A DNA stretch of 48,060 nt from an uncultured Gammaproteobacteria bacterium (GTDB lineage Bacteria; Pseudomonadota; Gammaproteobacteria; Arenicellales; JAANXG01): NCBI GenBank assembly GCA_947259175.1, contig CAMYKW010000017.1, positions 1 through 48,060 of the forward strand. Direction: 5' to 3'. The notes below the pieces were generated by a model. It ran no database searches. It was not told the origin of the DNA and was given only the letters and a program-made list of their open reading frames with translations. A program made the translations under genes and the position numbers. This document shows, one piece after another, positions 35,095 through 38,773 of the stretch; the stretch's first letter is position 1, and each line of letters opens with the position of its first letter.

Positions 35095-35748
35095 CTAAAA
35101 CACGAACCGCGGTGGCGGTTCGGCGTTGACCAGTGGCGGCAGGTCGGTTTCGAACAACGCCACTTCCTGCCAACTGTTGTCCTCCAGGCGGCGCACCAGA
35201 ATCGCCTCCATCACCGGTGACTGGCCAATTACTGCGATTAACCGTCCGTTCAACGCAAGGTTGGATTTGTAGGATTCCGGCAACGTCGGCATCGAACCGG
35301 TAATGATAATTGCGTCATAGGGTCCATCGCCATCCCAGCCTTGTGCCGCGTCGCCTTCAAAATAGTTGATGTTACTCAAGCCGTGTGCGTCGAGCTTGAC
35401 CCGCGCCGAGTCGATGAAATCGGTGAAGATTTCGACGGTGTCGACGCTTTTCCCGAGGCTGGCTAAGAGTCCGGTGAGGTAGCCGCTGCCGGTGCCGATT
35501 TCCAATATCTTGTCGCGGTCGCTCAAGGAGAGTTCCTGTAGAAGGCGCGCCTCCATCTTCGGTTGCATCATCTGCTGCCCATGGTCAAGCGGGATATTCA
35601 TGTCCACAAACGCCAGCGCTCTATATTCGTCGGGTACGAAATCCTCACGTCGAAGTTCGTGGATGAGATTCAGGACCTTGGGGTCCAGCACGTCCCACGT
35701 TCGGATTTGTTGCTCTATCATGTTGAAACGGGCTTGCTCGACGTCCAT
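35095..35748 (-). CDS. pcm: Protein-L-isoaspartate O-methyltransferase
   Basis: This 217-residue repair enzyme methylates isoaspartyl residues in damaged proteins using S-adenosylmethionine. It starts MDVEQARFNMIEQQIRTWDV. The SAM loop is ILEIGTGSGYLTGLLASLG, flanked by the PIMT signature QQMMQPKMEARLLQELSL and DAIIITGSMPTLPESYKS. In this variant the N-terminus and the PLDHGQQMMQP block match the proteobacterial PIMT subfamily often found beside tolC. Confidence 0.94.
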   Translation of the reverse strand: MDVEQARFNMIEQQIRTWDVLDPKVLNLIHELRREDFVPDEYRALAFVDMNIPLDHGQQMMQPKMEARLLQELSLSDRDKILEIGTGSGYLTGLLASLGKSVDTVEIFTDFIDSARVKLDAHGLSNINYFEGDAAQGWDGDGPYDAIIITGSMPTLPESYKSNLALNGRLIAVIGQSPVMEAILVRRLEDNSWQEVALFETDLPPLVNAEPPPRFVF

Positions 35749-35949
35749 TGGTAAGGCCTTTATCTACTTGCGGTTGACAGTGCAAAGGGTAAGCAGTTTG
35801 GCAGCGAGTGGCAAGCCGCCATGGCTCGCTCGCCCCGCCGCACAACCCGGCTCCCGGCGGCGGTCCACGCCGGCGCACCATGGCCTGGGGAGACATAGCG
35901 ACCGGAGTTCGCGCGGCTTGATCTCATGCTGGCCGGTGGTGGGACCCGT

Positions 35950-36044
35950 AAAGAAAACGCCGGCCGAAGCCGGCGTTTTTCATGCCTTGTGAGTCGCGAT
36001 TTAGGAGGAGATCAAGGCATGTTTCCAGCCTCCTTGCCAGATGC
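35950..36044 (-). ncRNA. Predicted FNR/Anr-activated small RNA with anti-Shine-Dalgarno loop
   Basis: A predicted transcript of about 95 nt starts near 36044-36042 on the minus strand, set by a class II FNR promoter. It runs in order through a 5' segment with AAGGAGG, then a perfect 9-bp stem CATGCCTTG (36021-36013) / CAAGGCATG (35989-35981). That stem encloses a 23-base loop with TCTCCTCCT (36010-36002). The transcript ends in an intrinsic terminator with an 11-bp stem and a UUCG loop, followed by TTTTCTTT. The loop is complementary to ribosome binding sites, a hallmark of trans-acting regulatory RNAs. No protein-coding frame of use is seen in it. It sits alone between pcm and a small conserved gene on the same strand. 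The closest functional analogues known to me are FnrS of E. coli and the Anr-dependent PhrS; homology to them is not claimed. Confidence 0.65.
35951..35980 (-). terminator. Intrinsic terminator with UUCG tetraloop
   Basis: On the minus strand AAAACGCCGGC, TTCG, GCCGGCGTTTT forms an 11-bp stem with the extra-stable C(UUCG)G loop, followed by CTTT. It ends the predicted small RNA. It could also work on the plus strand, where five T residues follow the stem. Confidence 0.85.
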
Positions 36045-36049
36045 CGGAT

Positions 36050-36091
36050 ATTATCCTCGTAACGCGTAAAACTTGATTTGATCTGGATCAA
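36050..36091 (-). promoter_or_regulatory. Class II FNR/Anr-dependent promoter
   Basis: On the minus strand TTGATCCAGATCAA (36091-36078) is a perfect FNR/Anr box (TTGAT-N4-ATCAA). After exactly 22 bases comes GATAAT (36055-36050), a good -10 box. This spacing places the box centre at -41.5, as in class II FNR-activated promoters. There is no consensus -35, which also fits activator dependence. Transcription would run away from the small gene at 36161-36424 and into the predicted small RNA. Confidence 0.75.
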
Positions 36092-36115
36092 GCGAACGTA
36101 CCCACCACAAGAAAA

Positions 36116-36139
36116 GAACGCCGGTCGATGCCGGCGTTC
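36116..36139 (-). terminator. Intrinsic terminator of the 36161-36424 gene
   Basis: A 9-bp stem, GAACGCCGG with its complement and a 6-base loop, lies 21 bases after the stop codon. On the minus strand it is followed by the T-rich TTTTCTTG. Its stem sequence closely resembles the terminator at 35951-35980. Confidence 0.75.
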
Positions 36140-36160
36140 GCATGTGCTCACGGGCGGGTA

Positions 36161-36424
36161 TCAAACGGGCATCGCCGCCGGCGCTTGCGCCACCGGGTCC
36201 CAGGTCTTGGCCTCGAAGCGATAAAAACCTTGGGTCTTGATAGCGTCCTTCGCCAACATCTCATTGAACGCCGCGCGATCCTCGCCCATCTCGTCGAAAC
36301 GGCCGACCTCCTTGATCCCTCCGCCGCCGGGGCAGGCCGCCGCGCTGATATCCTTGCGGTGAACATCGTCTGTGACCACAAAAAGATCAGGGTCGTCTAC
36401 GCATCGATATACGGTGAATTTCAT
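36161..36424 (-). CDS. Small conserved hypothetical protein
   Basis: This 87-residue protein begins MKFTVYRCVDDPDLFVVTDD and contains AAACPGGGGIKEVGRFDEMG, then AFNEMLAKDAIKTQGFYRFE. There is no signal peptide or membrane helix, so it should be cytosolic. It resembles hypothetical proteins I associate with sulfur-oxidising gammaproteobacteria, but no function is known to me. The ATG at 36424 is preceded by AAGGAGGTGA, an almost complete anti-16S match, which predicts strong translation. An in-frame GTG at 36433 overlaps that ribosome binding site and is less likely. It is a single gene with its own terminator. Confidence 0.8.
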   Translation of the reverse strand: MKFTVYRCVDDPDLFVVTDDVHRKDISAAACPGGGGIKEVGRFDEMGEDRAAFNEMLAKDAIKTQGFYRFEAKTWDPVAQAPAAMPV

Positions 36425-36730
36425 ACCGTTCACCTCCTTTTTTTAAATGGCTCTCAATGTACCTATTTAGACAACAAACTCACCCGATCGTCCATCGAAT
36501 TATTACTCAGCGAAGATAAGTAAATATTATTGATCGAGTCCCCCACGCGGGGATTCGCCCCAGTTCCCCGGATGCAGCGCGGCGACCGGGCGGTTCGGTC
36601 CCGATCGATGTCGTGCCGACGCGAAGGTCGCTGTGCCGGAGGTGTACTGCGGGCGGTCAGCGGCCGCGTGCGCATGCCGGATAGGGGGTAACACTTGATC
36701 CGTCTCGGGGTTGGGAGTAGGGTGAGCGCT
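36425..36730. other. Divergent spacer between the small gene and the thiC riboswitch
   Basis: About 300 bases separate the minus-strand small gene from the plus-strand thiC leader. The half next to the small gene is AT-rich (around 36440-36530) and should hold its promoter; the other half is GC-rich. I cannot assign -35/-10 boxes with confidence, and no further gene is supported. Confidence 0.4.

Positions 36731-38773
<2,043 letters not shown>

Follow-up and report, generated by a model that had tools for sequence, protein, structure and literature searches.

A predicted Fnr-activated small RNA with an anti-Shine-Dalgarno loop, conserved upstream of pcm in an uncultured gammaproteobacterial genus

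The minus strand of the window (the whole stretch of 48,060 nucleotides that was analysed) probably carries, between 36091 and 35949, a stand-alone gene for an Fnr-activated RNA of about 95 nt, whose anti-Shine-Dalgarno loop is predicted to act on a tctC-type mRNA. A preliminary description had proposed an FNR-activated small RNA at this place, and that overall prediction is supported by conservation across the genus, by paired base changes, and by the lack of a conserved start codon. The unit is a well-conserved candidate for an oxygen-responsive sRNA in an uncultured genus of Gammaproteobacteria, and a first target can be named for it. Among the points that weigh against this explanation are the changed box and poor -10 of one congener (G002) and a main stem without covariation.

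The unit begins with the FNR box TTGATCCAGATCAA (36091-36078), which five of the six genus genomes share without change and which is the sole TTGATN4ATCAA in the 48 kb window, compared with 0.015 expected from base composition. The -10 hexamer GATAAT (36055-36050) follows after exactly 22 bases and has a mean identity of 83%, against 48% for the spacer. Class II spacing would place the transcription start at 36043, plus or minus 2, and with this start the box is centred at about -41.5. The box, the gap, and the hexamer had all been pointed out before, and each is borne out in the sequence. No sigma-70 promoter was listed at the unit by a simple consensus scan, in line with what an activator-dependent start lacking a -35 element should give.

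The predicted RNA (36043-35949) folds into three parts. A small 5' hairpin (36041-36024) was absent from the preliminary description and is present in all five congeners. It is followed by a 9-bp stem with a 23-nt loop (36021-35981; arms 36021-36013 and 35989-35981, loop 36012-35990), and this loop contains the anti-Shine-Dalgarno stretch UCUCCUCCU (36011-36003). The RNA ends in an intrinsic terminator with a U-rich tail (35979-35949), the hairpin of which (35979-35954) is capped by UUCG. The fold agrees with the one proposed earlier for a transcript of this length and has a z of -4.7, and none of 200 shuffled sequences was equally stable. The terminator is conserved in the genus, but its UUCG cap, which had also been singled out, is not. 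A simple terminator scan did not list the unit's own terminator, the U run of which lies partly within the stem. The scan found two terminator-like sites in the region, compared with 1.2 expected; a terminator-like hairpin at 36139-36116 on the minus strand lies 3' of the upstream small gene and separates that gene from the unit.

Of 31 genomes searched, all six of the genus, this one included, contain the unit, whereas it was found in none of the 25 others. The five congeners share the three-part fold (z of -4.7 to -6.6), and in two of them the minimum-energy structure places a few extra pairs within the loop. The loop's 19 bases UCUCCUCCUAAAUCGCGAC, made up of UCUCCUCCU and the adjoining AAAUCGCGAC, are invariant in 6/6 genomes, and a CU-rich stretch is both exposed in the predicted loop and conserved, as in anti-Shine-Dalgarno sRNAs. 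A class II site near -41.5 is likewise found, with a spacer of 22 bases here and 21 bases in four congeners (the hexamer being taken from the same alignment column), and with the variant box TTGACCGAAGTCAA and a weak -10 in G002, the most distant congener. Mean identity over the five closest genus genomes, with G002 left out, reached 1.00 in the box, 0.98 in the loop, 0.97 in the stem-loop, 0.88 in the terminator (35980-35950), and 0.63 in the 5' part, compared with 0.48 in the promoter spacer and 0.54 in the bases 36115-36092, which directly precede the box. In pcm, the first 300 bases had a value of 0.87, and the end of the small gene had 0.85; thus, the loop is more conserved than its coding neighbours. 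Loss of box, stem, and terminator beside retained flanking genes had been named as evidence against the proposal, and the opposite was found, with stem, loop, and terminator in 6/6 genomes and the exact box in 5/6.

Paired base changes are a useful sign of a functional RNA. Three of the six pairs of the 5' hairpin show changes on both sides that preserve pairing, and the terminator has one such pair; this total of four was reached in 2 of 500 column shuffles. When the 3' partners were slid by +2 columns, three both-side-changed pairs were again obtained, although only 41% of the cells were paired, compared with 96% unshifted. The test covers six related sequences with imperfectly aligned rows, and the paired changes are support for an RNA, not proof. 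No covariation is seen in the main stem among the six genus genomes, where seven of its nine pairs never vary.

The statement that no coding frame competes has to be amended, as a 75-aa GTG frame (35924-36151, minus strand) crosses the unit, although nothing about it suggests a gene. Coding through the loop was considered and rejected: one sense frame is open in 6/6 genomes over the approximately 100 bases translated, its start is not conserved, and an invariant loop leaves no codon position free for variation. A plus-strand gene starting at the AGGAGGAG-ATG of the complement was also rejected, since G003 has ATA in place of the ATG, and the peptides, besides being short, are unlike one another. 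A non-coding RNA is therefore favoured, both by the paired changes in the 5' hairpin and by the absence of any conserved start.

The covariance search that had been suggested was run with a model of the unit (R1), and strong matches were obtained in all six genus genomes. Matches occurred in 10 of 13 family genomes (E up to 1) and in 32 of 109 order genomes (E up to 0.1); those of 79-116 bits were confined to the genus, and all others scored 34.1 bits or less (best E 0.00078, in G045). The weak matches were rejected as distant homologues: an FNR-like box was found around 0 of 31 and CTCCTCC around 2 of 31, and in the five best of them the alignment covers the hairpin and the terminator, and their loop is short and unrelated. 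With strong matches in the genus alone and the 31 weaker ones boxless, the unit is, to the extent of these searches, restricted to the genus. Seven genomes of four sister genera all possess pcm, with no FNR-like box and no CTCCTCC within 500 bases upstream. The exact loop 18-mer occurs at eight loci in a collection of 84,980 species, where about seven are expected by chance by our own arithmetic; five lie in uncultured Gammaproteobacteria and the other three in Cyclobacterium, Anaerobacillus, and Roseibacillus.

The genus also encodes an Fnr-like protein and Hfq. The best PF13545 protein of each genome carries CX2CX5C near the N-terminus and an ETVSR motif in 6/6 genus genomes, which we take to be the marks of Fnr. 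An oxygen-sensing Fnr-like protein of the Crp/Fnr type is thus available in all six, as expected for an Fnr-activated sRNA. The best NCBIfam match of the protein from this genome is Fnr, at 198.9 bits, which is below the cut-off of 228. Hfq is encoded in 6/6 genus genomes.

Target prediction from the loop, as proposed earlier, gave one strong candidate (tctC) and one moderate candidate (a gene for a secreted metallo-beta-lactamase-fold protein). The loop core has as its complement the 16-mer TTTAGGAGGAGATCAA, of which the six genomes contain exact copies at five sRNA loci and at one other site. This sole other site is the Shine-Dalgarno of a TctC-family gene in this genome, and the match reaches into the start codon. 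By our own arithmetic, such an exact match would arise by chance in this genome with a probability of about 0.002 for TTTAGGAGGAGATCAA and 0.02 for any loop 16-mer. The motif AGGAGGAG lies upstream of tctC in the five genus genomes where tctC was found (duplex energies of -19.4 to -30.7), the four besides this one carrying AGGAGGAGAACAATG or AGGAGGAGAACGATG at the ribosome-binding site, and pairing is interrupted or shorter in 4/5; tctC was not found in G002, whose genome is 74% complete. In six sister-genus genomes, tctC is preceded not by AGGAGGAG but by ribosome-binding sites of other sequence, whose duplex energies lie between -9.7 and -15.0; for four of these six genes, the identity is only 58-60% and the start is uncertain. 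The contrast between the genus and its sister genera is one evolutionary event. In five genomes, AGGAGGAGAT or AGGAGGAGAC is found at the metallo-beta-lactamase-fold gene, the family having been checked on one copy.

More generally, the six genomes contain 140 sites of the pattern AGGAGGAG-N3-11-ATG and 45 of its reversed form, an excess of the kind expected from any good Shine-Dalgarno. Of these sites, 137 were examined (those on contigs C269, C283, and C373 of G005 were left out), some being double or the sRNA itself; 88 site records had a long or open frame, and 73 entered the pairing test after filtering for spacing and redundancy. Ortholog groups were formed by tctC and the metallo-beta-lactamase-fold gene (five genomes each) and by rhodanese, an ABC binding protein, SoxA, and thiolase (three genomes each). 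Over the 73 candidate sites, the real loop paired no better than loops with a kept core and permuted flanks, 116 of 300 being as good or better. On single genes, the same test tended to favour the real loop only for tctC (15/300) and the metallo-beta-lactamase-fold gene (20/300), both values being uncorrected. Rhodanese, the ABC binding protein, SoxA, and thiolase showed no extra pairing with the loop, and they are therefore not claimed as targets.

A 16-mer search with up to two mismatches found 24 sites, compared with 10 for controls counted without a start-codon check. Five of the 24 are the sRNA itself, and eight of the other 19 precede a long frame, six of these being tctC or the metallo-beta-lactamase-fold gene. 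At one locus of this search range (L295, G000 C27), a molybdopterin oxidoreductase gene is preceded by TTTTAGAGGAGATCAAGTG, which differs from the loop complement at two positions; this gene may be a further target. As tctC matches but no pairing excess was found over the 73 sites, an anti-Shine-Dalgarno mechanism of the loop is plausible, with one good candidate target and not a mapped regulon.

The position of the unit leads to the question of whether it belongs to a neighbouring gene. It had been placed between pcm and a small conserved gene. The former, pcm (protein-L-isoaspartate O-methyltransferase; Pfam PCMT; 35095-35748, minus strand), occurs in 13/13 family genomes and lies downstream of the unit in the same direction in 6/6 genus genomes. 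The latter (36161-36433, minus strand; 90 aa, no Pfam or NCBIfam family) adjoins the unit in 5/6, at about 75% identity, but was not found in G002. A TPP riboswitch ahead of thiC was observed further along (36725-36828, plus strand; 57.1 bits, with the gathering score at 54.3), and also in two of the five congener loci scanned, some of which end nearby. The constant order of unit and pcm would fit a cis-acting leader, with the box driving pcm and the stem-loop and terminator forming an attenuator in its 5' region. We regard this as quite unlikely, since the terminator is followed by 120 poorly conserved bases (35949-35830, identity 0.54), and identity rises to 0.79 only in the approximately 80 bases directly before pcm. 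That block (35749-35830, minus strand) holds a promoter-like motif with a CTTACCCTT or CTTAACCTT core, which can be made out by eye in 11 of the 13 family genomes, among them some from genera that lack the unit.

It is also conceivable that no RNA gene exists and that an unrelated FNR site beside a terminator has been conserved as DNA, and the terminator stem can indeed be read in both directions. However, the loop is invariant besides box and terminator, the 5' hairpin has paired changes, and no other gene of the window starts where the box could serve, all of which makes this very improbable. If an RNA is made, its loop might bind another RNA, as a sponge, or a protein, with the likeness to an anti-Shine-Dalgarno being incidental. 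The ten bases past the core (AAAUCGCGAC) exceed in their invariance the needs of generic Shine-Dalgarno pairing, and target enrichment over the 73 sites was not seen; the 16-nt match at the tctC start codon argues the other way, and we consider such a partner unlikely. A further alternative would be a sponge of RsmA/CsrA like RsmX/RsmY, given that the best sub-threshold Rfam match is rsmX (RF02144; 31.4 bits, E 0.00019). The gathering score of this family is 56, the aligned pairs belong mostly to hairpin and terminator, and instead of conserved GGA loops a GGA was seen by eye in the 5' hairpin loop of 2/6 genomes only, so that this idea is scarcely credible.

For the Fnr-activated anti-Shine-Dalgarno RNA, the following course is proposed. 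At low oxygen, the FeS form of Fnr would bind the box at -41.5 and activate transcription from the -10 at 36055-36050, as suggested by geometry and conservation. The RNA is predicted to fold into the 5' hairpin, the stem that keeps the 23-nt loop open, and the terminator, all of them conserved. The loop's UCUCCUCCUAAAU would then pair with purine-rich Shine-Dalgarno regions and block ribosome loading, probably with the participation of Hfq. The best-supported target is the mRNA of the TctC-type binding protein of a tripartite transporter, and the second candidate is that of the secreted metallo-beta-lactamase-fold protein. Uptake and oxidation functions would thereby be lowered once oxygen runs out, like with FnrS in enterobacteria.

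Similar layouts may exist elsewhere. A class-wide pattern demanding an FNR box and CTCCTCC at 48-78 bases, and neither hexamer, hairpin, nor terminator, matched in 8 of 369 class genomes (own included), against two hits for the reversed pattern, which is a modest excess. In two matches from other families, L307 (G180) and L310 (G465), both on the minus strand near the middle of their loci, the FNR box is followed after 22-23 bases by a hexamer resembling a -10, then by a hairpin whose loop contains CUCCUC or CCUCC, and finally by a terminator with a U tail; their sequence is otherwise different from the unit, and they have no Rfam match. The full layout was not seen by eye in the other five class-wide matches, and in the order the pattern occurred in 2 of 103 non-genus genomes, neither complete by eye. 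It is a tentative and rather doubtful idea that Fnr-activated anti-Shine-Dalgarno hairpins are a recurring, unrecognised sRNA type of Gammaproteobacteria that arose more than once, and that the tctC Shine-Dalgarno subsequently changed towards the loop here. Because the sister genera keep pcm, and most of them a tctC relative, without the RNA, the unit is a case for following the change of a target ribosome-binding site after the birth of an sRNA.

Database comparison at the gathering score gave only TPP in the window; the unit had no Rfam match here or in the five congeners, and the FnrS family had none in the window. PhrS of Pseudomonas aeruginosa is an Anr-dependent sRNA and resembles the unit as an oxygen-related sRNA with a terminator, but its Rfam model (RF01673) has 212 positions and scored 18.1 bits, well short of its gathering score of 37. 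FnrS of E. coli represses functions that are dispensable without oxygen and is itself activated by Fnr, through a class II site with its centre at -41.5; for gonococcal FnrS, a class II site and a terminator have been predicted (PMC3032703, PMC8139620, PMC4423775). The gonococcal RNA has a build like that of E. coli FnrS (PMC3032703), and meningococcal AniS is induced in anoxia (PMC4423775). The unit is like them in being a short stand-alone RNA, and it shares with E. coli FnrS the class II site near -41.5. It differs in its neighbourhood and in pairing, as predicted, via a stem-held anti-Shine-Dalgarno loop, and no sequence relation was found.

Anti-Shine-Dalgarno pairing is known from other sRNAs. 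NmsRA and NmsRB of Neisseria meningitidis repress metabolic mRNAs through UC-rich single-stranded and loop regions complementary to the Shine-Dalgarno, a complementarity that the unit's loop shares. According to the accessible part of the report, they differ from the unit in extending the stringent response, in having two anti-SD stretches, tandem copies, and TCA-cycle targets, and in not being described there as Fnr-activated (PMC5362039). In Alphaproteobacteria, SmelA075/SmelA099 of the Rhizobiales (PMC3927594) and the alphaR8 family SisA-D (PMC12559287) expose a CCUCC-type motif in hairpin loops or a single-stranded stretch; unlike the unit, they have CCUCCUCCC or UUUCCUCCCU motifs in several loops or copies, and the available parts of both reports describe no Fnr control. 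No Fnr-activated sRNA of the anti-Shine-Dalgarno kind was found in the literature excerpts examined. The unit is predicted to work like FnrS and NmsR combined, with no sequence tie found to either. We judge it to be a new, genus-restricted candidate, while FNR-induced sRNAs and anti-Shine-Dalgarno sRNAs are known kinds.
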